Part shown: one piece after another, positions 46,707 through 57,552 of the stretch
Position numbering within the stretch: the first letter of the stretch is position 1
How the letters are laid out: each line of letters begins with the position of its first letter
Assembly (NCBI GenBank): GCA_902559415.1
Contig: CACEHW010000004.1
Span: 1-57,552 of the forward strand
Direction of reading: 5' to 3'
Length of the DNA stretch: 57,552 nt
From: an uncultured Fidelibacterota bacterium
GTDB lineage: Bacteria; Fidelibacterota; Marinisomatia; Marinisomatales; UBA1611
Program-made: the position numbers and the translations under genes
Notes under the pieces: generated by a model
Databases searched by the model: none
The model's input: the letters and a program-made list of their open reading frames with translations, nothing else
What the model was told of the DNA's origin: nothing

Positions 46707-47453
46707 TTAGTAGCTTGGAATTCTTTTTAAACTCTTTTCTTGAAATAAATCACTATCTATATCAGAATCCACTTTAATATTTTCAATATTTAAATTTGTA
46801 GTGTGATTTTTTTGAATATCATTAACAAAAATTTTTGATACCACAAAATAATTTTCAATTTTTGTGTAAAAAAATGTTTTCATTTTTTTAAGCTTATTTT
46901 TTTTATCAAACGAATTTTCTTTTACGATGTAAAGGTCCTCTTTAGAAACCCATATTTTATGCATACCATATGAGTTTCTAAATTCAGCTTTAGGAATTAC
47001 TTTTAAAACATAATAAGAAACCCCTTCAATTATTTCATCTTCTAAACGAAAATAATTATTTTCACTAAGTGATCTACTGGTCATATCTTCATAACTAAGA
47101 TCTGAGCCCATAAATGAGTCACTCATCCTATTTGCATTAATTCTACGAATTTTATTATATGCAGGTAACCATATTCGCATTTCATGGTTTTGGTCACTAT
47201 GCTCTTTTTTTAAAAATGACATCCCCCTATCTGACTTAGGTTCTAATACCCAGATAAGCTGATACTTATTTCTATTTGTGGATTTTGAGATCATTACACT
47301 TTTGCGAGTCTTATTTTTTGAATTTGTCAGTGTCATAGATATCTTACTCGACATGCTAATAGGTATACTTCTTTCATTAATCAATTTTGCTATCTCAAGG
47401 CCTGATTGAGAATAGATAATACTGAAAAGGCAGAAAAAGAAAATTACTCTCAT
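46707..47453 (-). CDS. Outer-membrane lipoprotein-sorting (LolA-like) protein
   Basis: RGMSFLKKEHSDQNHEMRIWLPAYNKIRRINANRMSDSFMGSDLSYEDMTSRSLSENNYFRLEDEIIEGVSYYVLKVIPKA is typical of the LolA-like family paired with RND/MMPL exporters. Confidence 0.85.
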   Translation of the reverse strand: MRVIFFFCLFSIIYSQSGLEIAKLINERSIPISMSSKISMTLTNSKNKTRKSVMISKSTNRNKYQLIWVLEPKSDRGMSFLKKEHSDQNHEMRIWLPAYNKIRRINANRMSDSFMGSDLSYEDMTSRSLSENNYFRLEDEIIEGVSYYVLKVIPKAEFRNSYGMHKIWVSKEDLYIVKENSFDKKNKLKKMKTFFYTKIENYFVVSKIFVNDIQKNHTTNLNIENIKVDSDIDSDLFQEKSLKRIPSY

Positions 47454-49765
47454 GAAATTTTTGACCCAATTAATTTATTTTTTTTCAATAAATGCACAAT
47501 AGAGGCTAACAATGTTAATGTTCCAAATGAGGTAGAAAACATAGCAAAGACCATTAAACCACCTACGTATTGAACAGGTATAAAACTTGAAAATAATAAT
47601 GCACCAAAGGACATGTTTGATACAGAGTCTAAAATAATAGGGTAACCAACTTCATTGATAACATTTTTTGAAATTTTATCTGAACTCGCTTCTTTTGATA
47701 ATCTTTTATATTGATATATGTAATGGATAGAAAAATCGACACCAACCCCTATAATGACCGATGATAAGAGTGCCGTAACATGACTCAAATAGATACCCGA
47801 AATACCCATAAATCCAAAATTTATTAATACAGCTGCAGCTAATGGGACTATCGAAAGGAAACCCCACGTTAAACTTCTAAAAAATAGTGATGTTATTACA
47901 CAAATTATCAACATCGAAAATGATATACTTAAAACTGAGGATTCTATCACTAAAAAAATTAGATCTCTAATTACCACAGCCATACCAGTCACAGACACAT
48001 TCTTTACTTCTTTTAATTTGCTTACAAAGTATTCAATTTCTTTTACGAAAGATATAATTTGATCGGTACTCATAACACTGCTTAAAGCGGTTATTAAACC
48101 AGTATTATAATTATAATCTACCATGGAACTAAGATCATCATAATCCCCAGACATAGAGTACATAAGAAGTAGATTACTGACTTTTTGTTTTTCCTCAGGG
48201 ATTACATCAAACTCAGGATCATCATCCATTAAAATACGATGCATTTGTTTTAAAGCATCTGCTATTGAGAAACTAGTAGTTACACTACTATTCTTTTCTA
48301 GTAATGTTTGTATTTTTTCAATTTCATAGAGCGCCAATGGATCTTTTAAATTGCCTTCCACTCTTACACGAATATCCATTGTCCCAGTCATTTGTTCATC
48401 AATAAAATCTATACTATTTCTGAATTCAGTGTCTTCCTTGAAAAAATTTGCAATATTTACATCGACCACTAATTTATTTAAACCAGCAATGCCAATAAGC
48501 ATAGTAACAAATCCAATCAATAAAATATTTTTTGGTTTAGAAACAACTACTTGCCCAAACGCTTTCATTAGATTCTCAGTAAAACTTGCTCTTGATATTG
48601 CAAGAGATTTCAATTCCCATTTTTTTAATGATAACGCAGCTGGTAAGAAAGTCAAGCTAAGGATAAAAGCATATAAAATACCTATACTCAAACATATACC
48701 ATATCCCATAAGCTGTTTAATAGGGGCAAAATAAAGAGCAAGAAATGCAGCGATTGTAGTTATACTTGTAAGAAAAATAGGAATTAAAAGCGTGTCCATT
48801 GCCTCAGACACTGACTGGTGAGCATCTCCAGTTTTTCTCATTTCTTTAAAAAATTTTGTTACAAAATGTACACCATCTGAATTTGCTATAGTTAATAGTA
48901 TAATCGGCATTGATGAGTTTATTATAGTAAAGTAAAAATTTTCTGAGCCTGTAAAATGTGTAATCCAGCCCATCATACCAGACATTACCAAAAGAGACTG
49001 AATTATAATCGAAAAGATCATTCCGACAGCAAATAGGTTCCTAATATTAAATAGTAAAACTATGCTCATTAGCGCTAGCCCTATGAAAAGTAGCATTGAA
49101 ATATCTTTTTTGATCATGCCAGGAACAGAGCCAGTTATATATGCAGTACCACCATAGTGTATTTCATAATTTTTAGATAATAAACTATCACCTACCTGGA
49201 CTACAGCATCTCTCAGAATATTATGTGGAATATTATCAGTAGGTTTTACTAAAACATTAAAATAATTATCATTTCTACTTACTGATCTTTTTTTAATAGA
49301 AGAATTGTCATTTAGATACTTTACTATATTATCTATTTGACTTTCACTTAATTCTGATTTTGGTTGAAGAGGAACGATTTCGAGAAAACCATCTGCACTC
49401 TCAATTTTTGGGATACTTGAGATACTAGTAACTTTTTCAACTTCATCAATTTTTTGCAAAGCATTTGTTAATTCCCATAGATGTGAAAGAGCTTTTTGAT
49501 TAAAAATATTTTCATTTTTTTTGCCGAATGCTACAAAAATAGATTCAGTGCTACCAAATTCACTTTGTACTGAATCCCACGATAATTTTGATTTCATGTT
49601 TTCTGGGAGCATTGCCATCATATTATCGTCAATTACAATAAACTTTAATCCAGAACCGATGATGAGAGTTATTATAAAGGGGAAAAAAATAGATTTTAAA
49701 GGATTGTCCAGAACCTTTTTTGTTATCCAGAACCTATACGATACTCTTTTTTTGAGGTTGGTCAA
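47450..49765 (-). CDS. MMPL/RND-superfamily exporter
   Basis: 771 aa, two repeats of a large soluble loop plus about 5 TMs; VLSISFSMLIICVITSLFFRSLTWGFLSIVPLAAAVLINFGFMG...VIIGVGVDFSIHYIYQYKR; 4-nt overlap with the LolA-like gene. Confidence 0.93.
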   Translation of the reverse strand: MTNLKKRVSYRFWITKKVLDNPLKSIFFPFIITLIIGSGLKFIVIDDNMMAMLPENMKSKLSWDSVQSEFGSTESIFVAFGKKNENIFNQKALSHLWELTNALQKIDEVEKVTSISSIPKIESADGFLEIVPLQPKSELSESQIDNIVKYLNDNSSIKKRSVSRNDNYFNVLVKPTDNIPHNILRDAVVQVGDSLLSKNYEIHYGGTAYITGSVPGMIKKDISMLLFIGLALMSIVLLFNIRNLFAVGMIFSIIIQSLLVMSGMMGWITHFTGSENFYFTIINSSMPIILLTIANSDGVHFVTKFFKEMRKTGDAHQSVSEAMDTLLIPIFLTSITTIAAFLALYFAPIKQLMGYGICLSIGILYAFILSLTFLPAALSLKKWELKSLAISRASFTENLMKAFGQVVVSKPKNILLIGFVTMLIGIAGLNKLVVDVNIANFFKEDTEFRNSIDFIDEQMTGTMDIRVRVEGNLKDPLALYEIEKIQTLLEKNSSVTTSFSIADALKQMHRILMDDDPEFDVIPEEKQKVSNLLLMYSMSGDYDDLSSMVDYNYNTGLITALSSVMSTDQIISFVKEIEYFVSKLKEVKNVSVTGMAVVIRDLIFLVIESSVLSISFSMLIICVITSLFFRSLTWGFLSIVPLAAAVLINFGFMGISGIYLSHVTALLSSVIIGVGVDFSIHYIYQYKRLSKEASSDKISKNVINEVGYPIILDSVSNMSFGALLFSSFIPVQYVGGLMVFAMFSTSFGTLTLLASIVHLLKKNKLIGSKIS

Positions 49766-51264
49766 CGATTATAGTTCATTATTTTATAAATGAATGCCAT
49801 AATATCTTGAAAATTTATTTGAGAATCTTCATTATAGTCTGCTGGTGGAGTATGAGGATAAAATCCATAATGCATGTCGAGGGTATAAAATAAATCAAAA
49901 ACATCAATAGACGAATCAAAATTCACATCTCCAACAATATAATCAGGAAAACCTGTTGTGTCTCCCCCACCAAGAAAATCAATAGAATACTTTTGCGCTC
50001 TAGCAATCATAATATTTACACCTGGGTATTCATAATCCCATACAGTGTTTCCTGATGAATCTACTTCAAAAATTGTCGCATCATCTGCAACAGAAATTAG
50101 TGTATTCCCATTTGGCAATCTAAATGCACCGCTCTGCACATTAGAGTGAAAACCACCTGTCACCATCCACTCTATTTCTTCTGGTCCAAAAGGCTCAGAG
50201 TCATTAATTACATAGTTAATACTATCTAAATCAAGAGGTGGAGAGATTTCAAAAACTGCGGATGATAAATTCCCATAATTATTATTATAGAGAATCAAAT
50301 TCCCTGCCCCAGGATATCCTTCTTTTATCCAATTAACTCCATGCTGACTGTCTAAACGTTGTGATGAAGTTGAACCTCTGTCATATGCAGTAGGATTTCC
50401 CCAACGATATAAAAAATCACCACCTTTTCCTGAATTTCCACCTGTATGACCTGCCGCCTCATCTGTTGTAGTGCTATGATCAATGATATATATTTCATTT
50501 TGATGTCTGGAACTGATAACAATTTGATCTAGTATTGGATTATAATCTATTGCATTAACATGCATCCAATCGGCATTGCTTCCACCTGGCCCTCCACCGC
50601 CACCAACATCACCAAAGTTAATATCCATCAACTCTGGATGCTCAGATATAACACCATATCCAGGAAGACTTTGATCTGAGTCTTGAACTAAATGATCCCA
50701 AAGGTGCCATTCCCATACAATGTTTACTTCATTAGGGGGAACCATTTCAATCTCTAAAATTGCAGTTGACCACATTTCACCCAATGGGTTATTTATTGAA
50801 ACTCGCCCCATGGCATATGCCTGAGCAGCAGATTTTTTCTCCCACACAATAACTAAAATATTACCATTCGGTAGAGGCTGGACATCGTGATGATGCTGAT
50901 AAACCTCATCTGATATAGTATATTGCCATAAAATCGTACCGTCCCAAGAAATATGAGCTACTCCTCCACCTACTCCACCAGCGCTCATAGTTGGGTTCTC
51001 AACCCTGTAAGGATAAATAATTGAGCTATCTGCTAATAAATAAGGCATACTTGCAGCACCTCTTGGATGGACCCATGTATGGACGCTATTCATGTTGTTA
51101 TCTAAGAGGTAACTAGTACCACCAGTCGCACCATTAGGTCCCCCTCCAGTAGGAGAAAATAAAGTATAACCATTAAATATCTCTGCATTTATACTAACTC
51201 CAAATACAATAAAAAATATTATAAAAGACTTAAATAAATGGTTCATGAAATACTTTCTGTGCAA
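49762..51264 (-). CDS. Aryl-sulfate sulfotransferase (ASST)-like secreted protein with dockerin-like C-terminus
   Basis: TSYLLDNNMNSVHTWVHPRGAASMPYLL...YQHHHDVQPLPNGNILVIVWEKKSAAQAYAMGR...DWMHVNAIDYNPILDQIVISSRHQNEIYIIDHST; C-terminal VGDVNFDSSIDVFDLFYTLD...ADYNEDSQINFQDIMAFIYKIMN. Confidence 0.87.
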   Translation of the reverse strand: MHRKYFMNHLFKSFIIFFIVFGVSINAEIFNGYTLFSPTGGGPNGATGGTSYLLDNNMNSVHTWVHPRGAASMPYLLADSSIIYPYRVENPTMSAGGVGGGVAHISWDGTILWQYTISDEVYQHHHDVQPLPNGNILVIVWEKKSAAQAYAMGRVSINNPLGEMWSTAILEIEMVPPNEVNIVWEWHLWDHLVQDSDQSLPGYGVISEHPELMDINFGDVGGGGGPGGSNADWMHVNAIDYNPILDQIVISSRHQNEIYIIDHSTTTDEAAGHTGGNSGKGGDFLYRWGNPTAYDRGSTSSQRLDSQHGVNWIKEGYPGAGNLILYNNNYGNLSSAVFEISPPLDLDSINYVINDSEPFGPEEIEWMVTGGFHSNVQSGAFRLPNGNTLISVADDATIFEVDSSGNTVWDYEYPGVNIMIARAQKYSIDFLGGGDTTGFPDYIVGDVNFDSSIDVFDLFYTLDMHYGFYPHTPPADYNEDSQINFQDIMAFIYKIMNYNR

Positions 51265-51308
51265 ATATTTTCAAAATTATAAAATACAATAAAAATTTAT
51301 TTAATATT

Positions 51309-51343
51309 TTAACTATTAGACTCTCAAGGCGTCAAATAGTTAA
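51309..51343. promoter_or_regulatory. 9-bp perfect inverted repeat in the divergent intergenic region, candidate operator
   Basis: TTAACTATT (51309-51317), 17-nt spacer, AATAGTTAA (51335-51343), between the divergent ASST-like and sulfotransferase genes. Confidence 0.4.
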
Positions 51344-51402
51344 GTAAATTCCTTTCTAAAGTTAATACAATATCTATATCTCTAAATTTTTCATATTAAA
51401 CG

Positions 51403-52491
51403 ATGTTTAAAATCAATAGAAAACTAACCGCATATAAAATTGTTGGTAAAACTTTTGGTGCTTGGCTAGCTCCGCTAATTACAGGTTTCTTACTTTTTTT
51501 AATGAAATTAATTGTTTCAGCTTTTTTATTTATTGATAAAGTTTTTTTTAGGGTAGCACGCAAACCTAATCTGAAAAAGCCAATAGTAATTGTCGGCAAC
51601 CCGAGATCAGGGACTACTTTTTTGCAACGGTATTTAATAAATAGTGGCTTAGGTACTGGATCTCAACTTTGGCAATTGATTTACCCTTCTATCATTCTGC
51701 AAAAGATTATAAAACCGCTCTTGCCTATTCTAGAAAAAATAAGTCCAGCTAGGCATCACTCGACTGCGGCACATAAAACAAGCTTAACATCCATTGAAAC
51801 GGATGATGTAGGTTTATTTTTTAGATATTTTGATGGATTCTTTTTGTATGGTTTTTTATTTGCTTTTGCAGAGAAAGATTTTTTCACATTTTTTGATCCA
51901 AAGCAAAGAGATACTAGTAAAAGAGACTTTGATTGGTTTGAAAGTGTTTGGGCAAGGAATACGCACAGCAATGATAAACCCTATATAGGAAAATTATTTT
52001 CTTTAAGTACTAATTTGCCTGCTTTTCAGAAAAGATTCCCCGATTCTAAAATATTGTATATGATTAGAGATCCTTTGAATGTAATTCCATCAGGACTCAG
52101 TTTAGTTACTGGCGTTCTTGATAAGCGATTTGGGTTTTGGAGTTTAGAAAATAATATAAGGGCTAAATACATTAATAGACTATATAGTGCACTTGTCATT
52201 TTATTGAAACGATTTCATGATGATTGGGTAAATGACAGGATTGATAAATCACGAGTTATGGTAGTAAGGTATGATAGAATGATGTCTGATTTTGAAACAC
52301 TAATGGATGACATTTTTCTTTTTACAAATCATGAACCTTCTGCGGCGCTTATTGATGAAATAAAAAATACAGCTGAAAATCAAAGGAGCTATAAAAGTAA
52401 ACACAAATATGATTTAAGTAAATTTGGCCTTAGCGAAGAAAAAATAAAAAAAGATTGCAAATCAATTTATGAAACATTTTTAACAGAGTGA
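51403..52491 (+). CDS. P-loop (PAPS-type) sulfotransferase family protein
   Basis: KPIVIVGNPRSGTTFLQRYLINSG (5'-phosphosulfate-binding loop) and ILYMIRDPLNVIPSGLSLV (3'-phosphate motif). Confidence 0.9.
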   Translation: MFKINRKLTAYKIVGKTFGAWLAPLITGFLLFLMKLIVSAFLFIDKVFFRVARKPNLKKPIVIVGNPRSGTTFLQRYLINSGLGTGSQLWQLIYPSIILQKIIKPLLPILEKISPARHHSTAAHKTSLTSIETDDVGLFFRYFDGFFLYGFLFAFAEKDFFTFFDPKQRDTSKRDFDWFESVWARNTHSNDKPYIGKLFSLSTNLPAFQKRFPDSKILYMIRDPLNVIPSGLSLVTGVLDKRFGFWSLENNIRAKYINRLYSALVILLKRFHDDWVNDRIDKSRVMVVRYDRMMSDFETLMDDIFLFTNHEPSAALIDEIKNTAENQRSYKSKHKYDLSKFGLSEEKIKKDCKSIYETFLTE

Positions 52492-53099
52492 ATTATATCA
52501 TAATAAGAAAATATATATTATCATTTTTATTATCGATTGTAGGGATTTGCTATGCAGAATTAGATTTGAATAGTATAAACGACGCCAAGGATTGGAAATT
52601 TATCCAAAAAGGTAATATCAATCTCAAATGGACTACTTATCAGGGTTATCCTATATGCAAAGTAAGCACTCTTTTGCCATATGCAATAGATTCAATATCT
52701 AAGATAATCGAAGATATTGAGAGTTATCCAAATATTTTCAAAAGAGTCCATAATGTTCAAATTTTAGACAAAAATATGGTCCGCATAATGCTTGATATGC
52801 CTTTATTTCTTTCAAATAGAGACTACGTAATACAATATAAAAAAAATAAAAAAATAACTAAGTGGGAGTTCTCTTTTAATGCCATTACTCACAAAAATGC
52901 TCCAATAGATAAAAACTATGTCAGACTCATAAATGCTGCTGGGAAATGGGAGCTTTATCCAAAGACAAAAAATGAAACCTTGCTAAGTTATACTTGGAAT
53001 GGAGAACTTTTAGGAGATTTTCCTGATTTTGCACTCAAAAGAGCATGGAAAACACAAGGTAATGAGATAATACATTGGATAACAAATGCGCTTAAATAA
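52488..53099 (+). CDS. START/SRPBCC-fold lipid-binding domain protein, secreted
   Basis: DWKFIQKGNINLKWTTYQGYPICKVSTLLPYAIDSISKIIEDIESYPNIFKRVHNVQIL...LFLSNRDYVIQYKKN...NAAGKWELYPKTKNETLLSYTWNGELLGDFPDFALKRAWKTQGNEI; GTG start overlapping the previous stop (GTGA). Confidence 0.8.
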   Translation: MNYIIIRKYILSFLLSIVGICYAELDLNSINDAKDWKFIQKGNINLKWTTYQGYPICKVSTLLPYAIDSISKIIEDIESYPNIFKRVHNVQILDKNMVRIMLDMPLFLSNRDYVIQYKKNKKITKWEFSFNAITHKNAPIDKNYVRLINAAGKWELYPKTKNETLLSYTWNGELLGDFPDFALKRAWKTQGNEIIHWITNALK

Positions 53100-54528
53100 A
53101 TTTTTATTTTTACTGTTTTTAACAACAAATATGGTAATAAGCCAGTCTCCAAACACTTTTAATGGATTTGTAGATTATAACTATATATCTAAAACTTCAG
53201 ATGGCTCAATAATTAATCTTCCCTATAGATTATTTGGAATGAATATTAATCATGAAAATAATGATATCGTATTTCGGTCAAATATAGCTGTTGAACATAA
53301 ACTTAGAGAAGACACATATTTCTTATCTAATAATTCACCCTCAGATTTTAGTTTAGACATGCGTGAATTTTATTTACAAATGTTTACCTCATGGGGTGAA
53401 TTTAAAATCGGGAAAATAATTCATACGTGGGGTAATGTTGATGAAAATAGTCCTATTGATATAGTAAGTCCTTATGACTACTACTATACATTTGAATCAG
53501 GGACAAATAAGAAGATGGGGGCTTTTTCTTCAACAGCTGATTTTTATTTTAATAATTATAAAGTAGGCTTAACGCTCTCGCCTATTCATAATACGCATAG
53601 AACTCCTCAAGAAGATGACGATTTTCCAATCAAACTACCATCAAACCCCACTGATGAAGAATTCATGAAAATTAATGGCTTACCGTTAGAAATAGGCATT
53701 TATGGTTCTAGAACATTAGGTATTGGTGACATTGCAATACACTACTTCGAAGGATATGACCGGTTGTTCAATTTATCAGGTGTCAATGTCTATGCATTTG
53801 GACCAGATAAAAGTTTTTCTATCATCGATATAATATATGGATATAGAAAAACAAAGATGATTGGTGTTGGGACGACCCTCTTTTTTGGGAATACCACATT
53901 TAGAGGAGATGCTGCATTATTTAATACATCAGATAAAAATAGTGCAACTGATTTTTCATCAAGGATAAGTTCTTATCAGCCTCAAATTTATGATTCTTTA
54001 CATTACTCTTATCCCTTAATGGAAAAAGCAAACTATTTCCAAGCTACATTACAGCTCGAGATTGACTTACCTTTTGATTTAAAATTTGTAGGCCAGCTAT
54101 TTACCTATGATACTTTAGATTATAGCTCTGATAGCTTACCTCTTGATGAAGATATATCTATCCCAAATCTTGAAATCAGCGTAGATGAATTAGACCCCGA
54201 AAATATATTTACGCCTGGTTATGGATCTTCTCTTGGAGTATTAACAAAAAAAGCCGTTCTATTATCACTGCAAAAAACATTAGCTGATGAGCAACTTACC
54301 CTATCAGTTTCTTCTCTCTTAGATATTAATAGTATAGATAATAGCAGCTCAGTTCCTGGAGTTATTTTTTCCTTTGAAACTTCTTACAATATAAAAGACA
54401 ATTTATATATCACTGTTGGCTATACAAAAATAAAAGGAGATAAAAACCATCCTCTAGGTGAAGATTATCGGATAAATATAATGGAAGATTTTTCACATAT
54501 GCGAGCAAGTTTAAAATATAATTTCTAA
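53086..54528 (+). CDS. Outer-membrane beta-barrel protein (DUF1302-like)
   Basis: Signal peptide ending VISQ; GEFKIGKIIHTWGNVDENSPIDIVSPYDYYYTFESG; alternating amphipathic strands; ends in aromatic residue (LKYNF). Confidence 0.75.
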   Translation: MRLNKFLFLLFLTTNMVISQSPNTFNGFVDYNYISKTSDGSIINLPYRLFGMNINHENNDIVFRSNIAVEHKLREDTYFLSNNSPSDFSLDMREFYLQMFTSWGEFKIGKIIHTWGNVDENSPIDIVSPYDYYYTFESGTNKKMGAFSSTADFYFNNYKVGLTLSPIHNTHRTPQEDDDFPIKLPSNPTDEEFMKINGLPLEIGIYGSRTLGIGDIAIHYFEGYDRLFNLSGVNVYAFGPDKSFSIIDIIYGYRKTKMIGVGTTLFFGNTTFRGDAALFNTSDKNSATDFSSRISSYQPQIYDSLHYSYPLMEKANYFQATLQLEIDLPFDLKFVGQLFTYDTLDYSSDSLPLDEDISIPNLEISVDELDPENIFTPGYGSSLGVLTKKAVLLSLQKTLADEQLTLSVSSLLDINSIDNSSSVPGVIFSFETSYNIKDNLYITVGYTKIKGDKNHPLGEDYRINIMEDFSHMRASLKYNF

Positions 54529-54541
54529 TTGAATCAATAGA

Positions 54542-55504
54542 ATGAGTATCCAAATAACAGGCGCTGGAATATATCTACCTGATAAAATTGAAAAATCTAA
54601 ATCAACAGCTCAACTAATAAATAAAAGTGAAGATTGGATAATTTCAAAAACAGGAGTTAAAGAAAGAAGAATATCAGAAATTGATGTTGATCAAATGGGA
54701 GCGATTGCTGCAGCAGAGGCATTGAACAACAAAGATGAGCCAGATTTAATAATAAATGCCTCAGGAGTACCCAAGCAAACCATCCCTGATACCTCTGTAT
54801 TTTTTCAAAGAGAACTTGGAATTAAGAATGTTCCCTGTTTTAGTATTCATGGAACATGTCTATCATTTTTAATAGCTCTGAATAATGCTAGAGCATTAAT
54901 TAATTCTAATATATACAAAAAAATTTTGATCATCTCATCTGATAGGGGAAGCATTGGGCGCAACCCAAACGAGCCTGAAAGCGCTGCACTACTGGGTGAT
55001 GGCGCAGCGGCTATATTAGTTGAAAAAGAAGATACCAGTACAAATAGTTTCCACTATTGGAAGATGAACACATGGTCTAGTGATGCTGAATTAACTGAAG
55101 TACGAGGTGGAGGTACTTTTAAACATCCTCTAGATAAAAACACAGAATTAAATGATAATTTATTTACAATGGATGGACCCGCTATTTATAAATCAGCCAG
55201 AAAAAAAGCCTATAAAATGGTTCTGGATACGTTTAAAAAAACAAATTTTAATAAAGAAGATGTTTCGTGGGTCATACCCCACCAGGCTTCGTTGAAGGCA
55301 ATAAATGCCTATCATGAATATGGTAAATTCGAAAAAGATAGAATTATAAACATAGTATCAAAAACAGGAAATTGTGTGGCAGCTTCAATGCCAATGGCAC
55401 TTGTTACTGCTATAAAAGACGGAAGAGTCAAGCGCGGAGATTTATTGTTCTTTATTGGTACTGGTGCAGGGCTTTCAATGGCTTGTGCTCTAGTAACTTA
55501 TTAA
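54542..55504 (+). CDS. 3-oxoacyl-ACP synthase III / OleA-like thiolase-fold enzyme
   Basis: Cys in SIHGTCLSFLIALNNARA, GDGAAAILVE, His in WVIPHQASLKAINAY, Asn in KTGNCVAASMPMAL (C-H-N triad). Confidence 0.9.
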   Translation: MSIQITGAGIYLPDKIEKSKSTAQLINKSEDWIISKTGVKERRISEIDVDQMGAIAAAEALNNKDEPDLIINASGVPKQTIPDTSVFFQRELGIKNVPCFSIHGTCLSFLIALNNARALINSNIYKKILIISSDRGSIGRNPNEPESAALLGDGAAAILVEKEDTSTNSFHYWKMNTWSSDAELTEVRGGGTFKHPLDKNTELNDNLFTMDGPAIYKSARKKAYKMVLDTFKKTNFNKEDVSWVIPHQASLKAINAYHEYGKFEKDRIINIVSKTGNCVAASMPMALVTAIKDGRVKRGDLLFFIGTGAGLSMACALVTY

Positions 55505-55506
55505 AA

Positions 55507-56574
55507 TTATTTTGTCAATATCGCTTTTTTTATAAATGTTTTGGATGAGGTATTCAACCTAATTATATAAATACCGCTACTAGAATTAGCTCCATCCCAA
55601 TTAAAATTATATTCACCTACCTCTAAAATTTTATCATTTAAAATATCAATTAAATTACCTTTTATATCAAAAATTGAAATATTAACATATTCAGTCTTCA
55701 ATAAATTAATTTTAATATTTGTTCGAGGATTAAATGGATTTGGGTATGGATTTTCTATACTTACATCATATGGTAAAACCTTGACCTCACCAAGCTCTGC
55801 ATAGTCGCATTCTTGTGGTGACTCAACTTGAAAAGAATAATAAAACTGATCAAGGCTAACATTGAAATTTGAACTATTAGCTATACAATCCGGGACATCC
55901 TCACAGAGGCTATTCCCTCCTATTGCAAAATAGGGAAACCATGCACTATCATCGCTACTCCAATCGATGCTCATACTACATATACAATCCGGAAGGGATG
56001 TTATATTATTATTAAATAACCATAAATATTGTAATTCATCAAGTTCACAAATAGAAGACGGAATAGAGTCAATCTGATTATAACCTAAATCCAAATATTT
56101 AAGATTTGATAAACTATCTAAGTTCTCTATTATTCCTTCCAATATATTATTTGATATATAAAGTGATCTAAGCTCTTTTAATTTTTCGAAATTTAAAGGA
56201 AGAAAAGATATTCTATTCCATTCTAAGTATAAACCACTAAGTTTAGTCCAATTACCTATGGACTCGGGGAGAATAAAAATTGTATCGTTAACACCAGAAC
56301 TATTACCATAGTTTCCTGCTACTAGTATTTTAAGCCTACCATTAAACCACGATTGTGTTCCTATCTCAAAAGCAGAACCATAGTTTAAATTATTCTCACT
56401 TATTAAATCACTTAACGCATCCAAATCATTATTGTAAAAACAAGTATCTCCGAATAAAATATTAACATTACTAGGCAAAGAATCTACATATGTATACTCG
56501 GCATCACATTGCGAAAATAATGTATGGCTACTAATTAGCAATACAACCAGAATAATCTGATAAAACTTGTTCAT
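55507..56574 (-). CDS. Leucine-rich-repeat secreted protein with T9SS-type C-terminal domain
   Basis: LRRs (LSNLKYLDLGYNQIDSIPSSICELDELQYLWLFNNNITSLPDCI); C-terminal ENPYPNPFNPRTNIKINLLKTEYVNISIFDIKGNLIDIL. Confidence 0.9.
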   Translation of the reverse strand: MNKFYQIILVVLLISSHTLFSQCDAEYTYVDSLPSNVNILFGDTCFYNNDLDALSDLISENNLNYGSAFEIGTQSWFNGRLKILVAGNYGNSSGVNDTIFILPESIGNWTKLSGLYLEWNRISFLPLNFEKLKELRSLYISNNILEGIIENLDSLSNLKYLDLGYNQIDSIPSSICELDELQYLWLFNNNITSLPDCICSMSIDWSSDDSAWFPYFAIGGNSLCEDVPDCIANSSNFNVSLDQFYYSFQVESPQECDYAELGEVKVLPYDVSIENPYPNPFNPRTNIKINLLKTEYVNISIFDIKGNLIDILNDKILEVGEYNFNWDGANSSSGIYIIRLNTSSKTFIKKAILTK

Positions 56575-57552
56575 TTATTTAATATATAAAATTTTCTTTA
56601 ATTGACTTTTTGAAGAATTACTAATACGTAAAAAATATAATCCAGAAGGATGACTCTCTGCATTCCAAGTAGTATGAAAGCTACTTGTATTAGATACTAT
56701 TATTGGTATGTTTGATATATTTCTACCATTTATATCAAATATATTAATACTTAATCCACTCTCTAAAATATTTTCAACATTAAGATGAATAAATGAATTA
56801 AATGGATTTGGAAAAGGCATTTTCAATGTAGCACCTGTAGGAATCATCGAAGGTTCACTATTAATGCCTAATTCACTTATATAAAGTTCATTTATAATGG
56901 TCTTGGCTAATAAAGGTTTTTGAGAGGGGACTACAACGAATTGGCAATAGCTACTATTTATAGAACTATTAGTTTCACCAATAAAAGTAATAACTTGTTC
57001 TTCTCCCGGCGCGAGTTCTACAAACCCATTTTGATTATCGAACCAATTAAATTCTTCTGAAAACTCATAACTAAAAATATCAGAAATAGAACCCTCATTT
57101 TTTAACGTAAATGATATTGAAGCATTACCTTCAGGAAGAAAAATACAAGGGCCAGATTCATAACCTTCATTCATATTAATTGAAAGGTCATGAGTTAATA
57201 CACTAAAAGCAATTGGATATAAACTTGGAATTCTATTTGCCCTATAAACAGCACATATTGGTTCACATAAATTATAGTTCCCCCTCCATACCTCCTCTCC
57301 ATTACTACTCACTTCTATGGAAGTACCATTCCCGCCAACAGTTGTAATTAAATAATTCCCATTATCAAGTTTTTGAGCATTTCCAGATGCAAAACCAAAT
57401 AAATTTTCTGGTAAAGAATACTGCCAAACAATTGAAGATTGATTCTGATTAATTTCTATTTCTAGCGCTCTAGAAATTGGATAATCAGTCCCGAGGAATA
57501 CTTCACTTAAATTCCCATTATCAAATGTAACAATATTCCCATTATCAAGTCT
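56575..57552 (-). CDS. Arylsulfotransferase (ASST)-like secreted protein with T9SS-type C-terminal domain, partial (5' end beyond window)
   Basis: ORF track starts at an internal GTG (57312). The same frame stays open to the right edge: RLDNGNIVTFDNGNLSEVFLGTDYPISRALEIEINQNQSSIVWQYSLPENLFGFASGNAQKLDNGNYLITTVGGNGTSIEVSSNGEEVWRGNYN...; C-terminal LKMPFPNPFNSFIHLNVENILESGLSINIFDINGR. Confidence 0.82.
   Translation of the reverse strand, partial: RLDNGNIVTFDNGNLSEVFLGTDYPISRALEIEINQNQSSIVWQYSLPENLFGFASGNAQKLDNGNYLITTVGGNGTSIEVSSNGEEVWRGNYNLCEPICAVYRANRIPSLYPIAFSVLTHDLSINMNEGYESGPCIFLPEGNASISFTLKNEGSISDIFSYEFSEEFNWFDNQNGFVELAPGEEQVITFIGETNSSINSSYCQFVVVPSQKPLLAKTIINELYISELGINSEPSMIPTGATLKMPFPNPFNSFIHLNVENILESGLSINIFDINGRNISNIPIIVSNTSSFHTTWNAESHPSGLYFLRISNSSKSQLKKILYIK

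Follow-up and report, generated by a model that had tools for sequence, protein, structure and literature searches.

The window analysed here is a stretch of 57,552 nucleotides from an uncultured Fidelibacterota bacterium, i.e., the entire contig CACEHW010000004.1 of a genome that is 65% complete. Near its right end lies a divergent locus that combines a sulfotransferase (ST) depending on 3'-phosphoadenosine 5'-phosphosulfate (PAPS) with arylsulfate sulfotransferases (ASSTs), a ketoacyl synthase III (KAS III) and a set of envelope proteins. We propose with moderate confidence that this locus is a two-step sulfation system spanning the envelope, i.e., a sulfate relay. The proposal builds on what can be read from the sequences: the gene set, its conservation, intact catalytic motifs and a linkage of KAS III, ST and ASST across phyla. 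Conservation centres on the divergent ASST together with ST, a START-fold protein and an outer-membrane barrel, and not on the arm that holds the MMPL transporter. A sequence-only reading of the window by a model had named no described system with this exact gene set, and our literature searches of open-access papers found none either.

A conserved core with two types of sulfotransferase

The ST (51403..52491, plus strand) carries a hydrophobic N terminus and matches Sulfotransfer_3 (Pfam 4.2e-17); the Pfam matches of the ST group are Sulfotransfer_3/_1. Its PAPS motifs are invariant among 20 aligned sequences, i.e., GNPRSGTT (the P-loop of the 5'-phosphosulfate binding site) as well as R222 and S230 (3'-phosphate binding). 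We searched 245 genomes of the phylum (records named Candidatus Neomarinimicrobiota or Marinimicrobia) and found ST orthologs in 55 of them, with 53-81% identity and a clear gap to other sulfotransferases. Note that the incompleteness of metagenome-assembled genomes (MAGs) bears on every absence count. START is also present in 55 genomes, and 54 genomes hold both, next to each other. Fisher tests of co-occurrence with ST, which take no account of kinship between genomes, give p-values of 4e-52 for START, 9e-28 for KAS III and 9e-7 for Sat-CysC, a fused ATP sulfurylase-APS (adenosine 5'-phosphosulfate) kinase. The ST-like proteins of family f9 (L109-L112, 26-30% identity) have other neighbours and were not counted as orthologs; in this small-genome family, the distant ST-like proteins adjoin queuosine-type genes, as judged from sequence.

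We retrieved 56 neighbourhoods, 46 of which hold an ST ortholog and form the base of the locus counts within the phylum. START lies directly downstream of ST in 45/46 loci, a divergent ASST directly upstream in 43/46 (a contig end cuts two more), and the barrel is found within eight genes in 44/46. The order ASST< >ST>START>barrel is thereby kept in 43-45 of the 46 related loci, such that the arrangement is not due to chance. In three loci (L107, L084, L093) the gene order is rearranged with the same members retained, which speaks for a functional tie and against mere inertia. MMPL is near ST in 30 loci and the LolA-like gene in 29; about 25 loci include a KAS III ortholog. The earlier view of the two arms as one set holds for ASST-ST-START-barrel but for MMPL/LolA in only about 30 of the 46 loci. 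Neighbourhood conservation had been named as a check for that view; the set recurs across the phylum, and neither an outright lack of co-occurrence of the arms nor an outright assignment of ST or KAS III to an unrelated pathway was seen.

ASST-1 (49762..51264, minus strand) consists of a propeller of the arylsulfate sulfotransferase family (Pfam Arylsulfotrans 1.3e-19) and a C-terminal dockerin-like domain; its conserved residues are HHH124-126, H235, R253 and H308. Two further members of the set lie at the right edge of the window. One is a secreted leucine-rich repeat (LRR) protein with a sorting tail of the type IX secretion system (T9SS; 55507..56574, minus strand), whose gene is within eight genes of ST in 40/46 loci. 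The other is ASST-2 (56575..57552, minus strand), which is cut by the contig end to its C-terminal 325 aa with a T9SS tail. Full relatives of ASST-2 have about 690 aa and an ASST domain match of 4e-22. The T9SS-tailed ASST is a separate gene in 34/46 ST loci and is fused with LRR into one protein in L098 and L104. T9SS SprA is found in 28 of 33 genomes of the window's family, so the T9SS tails are usable. Signal peptides were called by eye, supplemented by the N-terminal helix of the START model.

With regard to family membership, the PF05935 scores of ASST-1 (70.9 bits) and of ASST-2 from relative L069 (79 bits) are above the curated cut-off of 24.2. ASST-2 aligns to Escherichia coli AssT (3ELQ) across H356, R374 and H436, and the equivalent residues are invariant in all full ASST-2 copies; the fragment in the window lacks this catalytic His/Arg/His part, which is cut off by the contig end. 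ASST-1 keeps the same equivalents except for copy L120 (His for Arg). A candidate equivalent of AssT H252 is an HHH/HH motif that is conserved in the ASSTs at plausible spacing, in a region outside the PDB alignment. Loci of Marinimicrobia hold two ASSTs and those of Ignavibacteria up to six. With several ASSTs per locus, and with catalytic residues that are intact in those Marinimicrobia copies that were checked, this enzyme type is probably central to the system and not an optional extra, in contrast to the sequence-only reading, which had treated the ASST as a possible add-on outside the cell. The seven genes of that reading stand, but its locus was incomplete, i.e., LRR, ASST-2 and the dockerin-like domain of ASST-1 had been left out.

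Dockerin-like C-terminal domains and T9SS sorting tails interchange on orthologous secreted ASST/LRR proteins (window 49762-51264; L093, L098, L104), which suggests that the dockerin-like tails do an anchoring or sorting job comparable to that of T9SS tails. In one relative, a trypsin-like protease with a dockerin domain adjoins the set (L088:16884-19289).

KAS III, PAPS supply and loci of other phyla

KAS III (54542..55504, plus strand; ACP_syn_III_C 4.2e-25) belongs to a subfamily nearest to MxnB/CorB, and its Cys-His-Asn triad is intact and invariant (C106, H247, N277). Searching its profile against PDB ranks MxnB (4e-73) and CorB (6e-73), i.e., the alpha-pyrone-forming KAS III enzymes of myxopyronin and corallopyronin, before FabH (5e-60). 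Further likenesses are the best-scoring NCBIfam model (PRK07204), the CLSF/GNC/GTGxG motifs and an insert: the stretch (E)RGGGT..P...T..DN...M(D/N)G, in the window TEVRGGGT...P...T...DNLFTMDG, is common to our KAS III and MxnB/CorB and missing in FabH. Unlike MxnB/CorB, with which identity is about 35%, KAS III is not accompanied by a modular polyketide synthase (PKS) here. A KAS III tree was set aside as a test of MxnB/CorB versus FabH kinship in favour of shared motifs and profile scores; a grouping with MxnB/CorB apart from FabH is favoured by similarity and the common insert. A pyrone product of KAS III would thus be a fair lead rather than a finding. In some relatives, a FabH-type KAS III is located inside an MMPL-LolA-barrel operon (L074:14732-15742, L091:3731-4726), and the first of these (genome G146) has no MxnB-like KAS III ortholog.

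Beyond the phylum, we scanned genome contigs for ST relatives and examined 29 such loci by profile searches of stop-to-stop frames. ST relatives with about 48-55% identity occur in Ignavibacteria, Bacteroidota, Deltaproteobacteria/Myxococcota, Chitinispirillaceae and Gammaproteobacteria. In 15/29 loci the gene next to ST encodes a member of the window's KAS III subfamily, scoring 328-432 bits against the subfamily profile (169 bits for the FabH-type neighbour in L204), i.e., KAS III is a strong partner of ST across phyla. Clear ASST matches are present in nine of these loci, among them Ignavibacteria, Bacteroidota and Gammaproteobacteria, with up to six per locus (L181, L190). An APS kinase is found in five (L177, L181, L190, L198, L205) and a START match in three (L170, L174, L204). 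Ignavibacteria and Bacteroidota show the gene order KASIII-ST-APS kinase-multiple ASSTs, L177 shows KASIII-ST-CysD-like-CysNC-PBP/ABC-ASST, and the Ketobacter-type order is KASIII-ST-ASST lipoprotein. KASIII-ST-ASST is the order of L206-L208, where the ASST start is lipobox-like and where, in L207, an AMP ligase-ACP (acyl carrier protein) protein follows. Records titled Klebsiella pneumoniae and Synechococcus (L170, L200) bear Deltaproteobacteria-like KASIII-ST loci; these MAGs are probably misnamed.

Sat-CysC (PF01747 + PF01583) is the next gene after ASST-2 in the window's genus, and a CysQ-like phosphatase of the inositol-monophosphatase family comes next in the loci of f16 relatives. Among the 55 ST genomes, 31 encode Sat-CysC, and in 28 of these 31 no convincing PAPS reductase was found (background matches of 20-31 bits only). 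PAPS is therefore unlikely to serve CysH-type assimilation in these 28 genomes and probably serves sulfation.

The proposed sulfate relay and its alternatives

According to a 2026 review, it is not known what most bacterial ASSTs use as natural substrates or what they do physiologically, with Cpz4 being the well-established case (PMC13426309). In caprazamycin biosynthesis, the type III PKS Cpz6 makes a triketide pyrone that is sulfated by the PAPS-dependent ST Cpz8, and the pyrone sulfate is the donor for the ASST Cpz4 (PMC6731281, PMC4257720). As in the caprazamycin/liposidomycin clusters of Streptomyces, the window encodes a polyketide/thiolase-fold enzyme, a PAPS-dependent ST and a PAPS-independent ASST together. 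The part of the dedicated carrier-making enzyme would fall to a KAS III nearest MxnB/CorB instead of a type III PKS. Further differences are that the ASSTs here are exported (signal peptide, T9SS tail, dockerin or lipobox), that a transport set is present and that there are no nucleoside antibiotic genes.

The sequence-only reading had instead taken mycobacterial sulfolipid-1 as its guide. Sulfolipid-1 depends on Stf0, Pks2 and MmpL8 and thus shares a sulfotransferase and an MmpL-type exporter with our locus. We set this analogy aside since the ST is of another Pfam family and no type I PKS is present; in addition, ASSTs and Gram-negative export parts are found here. Compared by their gene sets, KAS III, PAPS-dependent ST and ASST would fit the two-step logic of caprazamycin better.

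Synthesis of PAPS is cytoplasmic, which leaves Gram-negative bacteria in need of a means to sulfate targets outside. In the proposed relay, Sat-CysC, encoded in relatives' loci and here presumably past the contig end, would make PAPS. KAS III would condense acyl units to a lipid of beta-keto or alpha-pyrone-like type whose enol- or phenol-like hydroxyl group is acidic; the membrane-associated ST could sulfate this group on the cytoplasmic side, with the CysQ-like phosphatase removing 3'-phosphoadenosine 5'-phosphate. The MMPL, LolA-like and START carriers as well as the barrel would take the sulfated lipid over the periplasm to the surface. There, ASST-1 as well as ASST-2, which would be secreted by T9SS and have LRR as partner, would load the sulfuryl group on their catalytic His, from where it would go to an acceptor on the surface or outside the cell. 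The lipid structure, the outward direction, the lipid-to-ASST transfer and the acceptor are the parts of the relay that we infer. We put forward only tentatively its most specific form, in which the cell makes a lipid pyrone sulfate and transports it as sulfuryl donor to secreted ASSTs, which use it to sulfate the cell surface; the relay would have a KAS III-ST(-ASST) core in several phyla. If true, no natural donor pathway for exported bacterial ASSTs would have been described before such a pyrone-sulfate relay. The set of KAS III, PAPS-dependent ST and exported ASST offers a concrete donor pathway along with a chemical prediction (lipid enol or pyrone sulfate), and it points to candidate organisms outside Marinimicrobia.

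Several observations weigh against the relay. MMPL/LolA are not always beside the core, being elsewhere or absent in some loci. No KAS III ortholog was found in 18/55 ST genomes, including G110 (96% complete) and G106 (95%), where the role must fall to a different lipid or enzyme; the earlier inclusion of KAS III in the set thus holds as a partnership across phyla but not for every ST genome. The position of the catalytic Glu (E105) of PpyS is Ile81 in the window's KAS III and Val in MxnB, i.e., the Glu of the PpyS/OleA head-to-head enzymes is not present. Published work also puts MxnB/CorB inside the FabH clade (PMC4578411), and together these points leave pyrone formation undiagnosed. Our KAS III tree shows three groups only, from which the closest pair is not decidable. 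Sat-CysC was not found in 24/55 ST genomes, and in two of these from the window's family, G115 (96% complete) and G126 (95%), neither an APS kinase nor a CysD-type gene was found; binning loss may explain some of the absences, and others may be true. ASST-1 resembles AssT weakly by sequence (0.007), and, beyond its added dockerin-like domain or the T9SS tail of ASST-2, it differs in that the window copy as well as its two nearest copies have no cysteine, so an AssT-type DsbL-dependent disulfide is not possible in them. This disulfide is a feature of E. coli AssT and is not known to be one of the whole ASST family.

The main rival of the relay takes the sulfated lipid as the end product, i.e., KAS III and ST build a sulfolipid, MMPL, LolA-like, START and barrel insert it into the outer membrane, with the ASSTs only adding or redistributing sulfate. 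This would agree with the lipid-binding START fold, the hydrophobic N terminus of ST and the resemblance of MMPL, LolA-like and barrel to envelope export sets already described (AmeABCD, PMC6394551). However, MMPL, LolA and KAS III are missing from the locus more often than the ASST, and L181, L190 and L198 combine several secreted ASSTs with KASIII-ST, with no MMPL seen in the stretch. Given the constancy of the ASST, we prefer the relay and regard a sulfolipid product as possible but doubtful; the sulfated lipid is more likely a sulfate carrier. From the earlier idea of a sulfated-lipid synthesis and export locus, the theme of sulfation and envelope export is thus retained, and the lipid as end product is the less likely option.

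Turning the direction around, the ASSTs could scavenge sulfate from environmental aryl sulfates, with barrel, START, LolA and MMPL handling the product and ST being separate. Most natural ASST donors are unknown, E. coli AssT presumably uses phenolic sulfates of the host (PMC13426309), and PAPS synthesis genes were not found in several ST genomes. Nevertheless, we consider scavenging unlikely: an ST with invariant PAPS motifs nearly always adjoins the ASST, PAPS synthesis and CysQ-like genes are located in relatives' loci, and no convincing CysH was found in many of the ST genomes that encode PAPS synthase. Similarly improbable is an efflux system that sulfates hydrophobic phenols for detoxification and then pumps them out. 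Its precedent is an HAE3 transporter with DUF1302/LolA-type partners that protects Castellaniella from monoterpenes (PMC6394551), and some relatives have a TetR regulator between MMPL and ASST. Yet ASST and LRR are secreted, and the pairing of a dedicated KAS III with ST across many phyla suggests that the cell makes the substrate itself. That compactness of the genome merely holds unrelated neighbours together agrees with KAS III and Sat-CysC not being universal, but is very improbable and already disfavoured by the ASST-2/LRR fusion and by the recurrence of the same partners in other phyla and in the rearranged loci.

Transport parts and locus layout

An ORF check of the window confirms the seven genes at the positions and on the strands of the sequence-only reading, in two tightly packed divergent arms that are separated by an intergenic region of 138 bp (51265..51402). 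In the leftward arm (minus strand), LolA_like/MMPL and MMPL/ASST-1 overlap by 4 nt each. In the rightward arm (plus strand), ST/START overlap by 4 nt and START/barrel by 14 nt, and a gap of 13 nt separates barrel and KAS III. Pfam matches agree with the LolA-like, MMPL, ASST, P-loop sulfotransferase and KAS III calls.

The LolA_like periplasmic carrier (PF17131; 46707..47453, minus strand; 248 aa, Pfam 4.6e-45) has a signal-peptide-like N terminus. The adjacent MMPL/RND transporter of HAE3 type (47450..49765, minus strand; 771 aa, Pfam MMPL 2.2e-25) scores 156 bits with TIGR00921, which is under the cut-off of that model, and 70 bits with an HpnN-type model. The START-fold lipid carrier (52488..53099, plus strand; 203 aa) also shows a signal-peptide-like N terminus and is probably periplasmic. 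It is under the Pfam cut-off (Polyketide_cyc 0.0019), and the START-like call is borne out by its AlphaFold model (pLDDT 90), for which Foldseek reports StAR 3p0l as best match (9e-11, TM 0.75). A START paralog is part of another multi-gene lipid-type cluster without ST (L117, L118).

For the outer-membrane beta-barrel (53086..54528, plus strand; 480 aa), the AlphaFold model (pLDDT 81) is AlgE/porin-like with AlgE and porins as best Foldseek matches (5e-11, TM about 0.5). The protein had been called DUF1302-like; the barrel part of this call stands, the DUF1302 part does not, as there are zero Pfam matches including DUF1302. The earlier grouping of LolA-like, MMPL and barrel as an envelope export set has its precedent in the AmeABCD cassette of Castellaniella, which likewise joins an HAE3 RND pump, a LolA-superfamily protein and an outer-membrane barrel (PMC6394551). 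Different from AmeABCD, no AmeC homologue was noted, the barrel has no DUF1302 match and the set is placed within a sulfation locus.

In many relatives, a second set of MMPL, a protein of about 105 aa and a LolA-like protein lies just past ASST-2 or Sat-CysC (L069:18484-20000, L084:175-3534, L091). The TetR-family regulator between ASST-1 and MMPL is seen in several relatives (e.g., L080:12429-13052).

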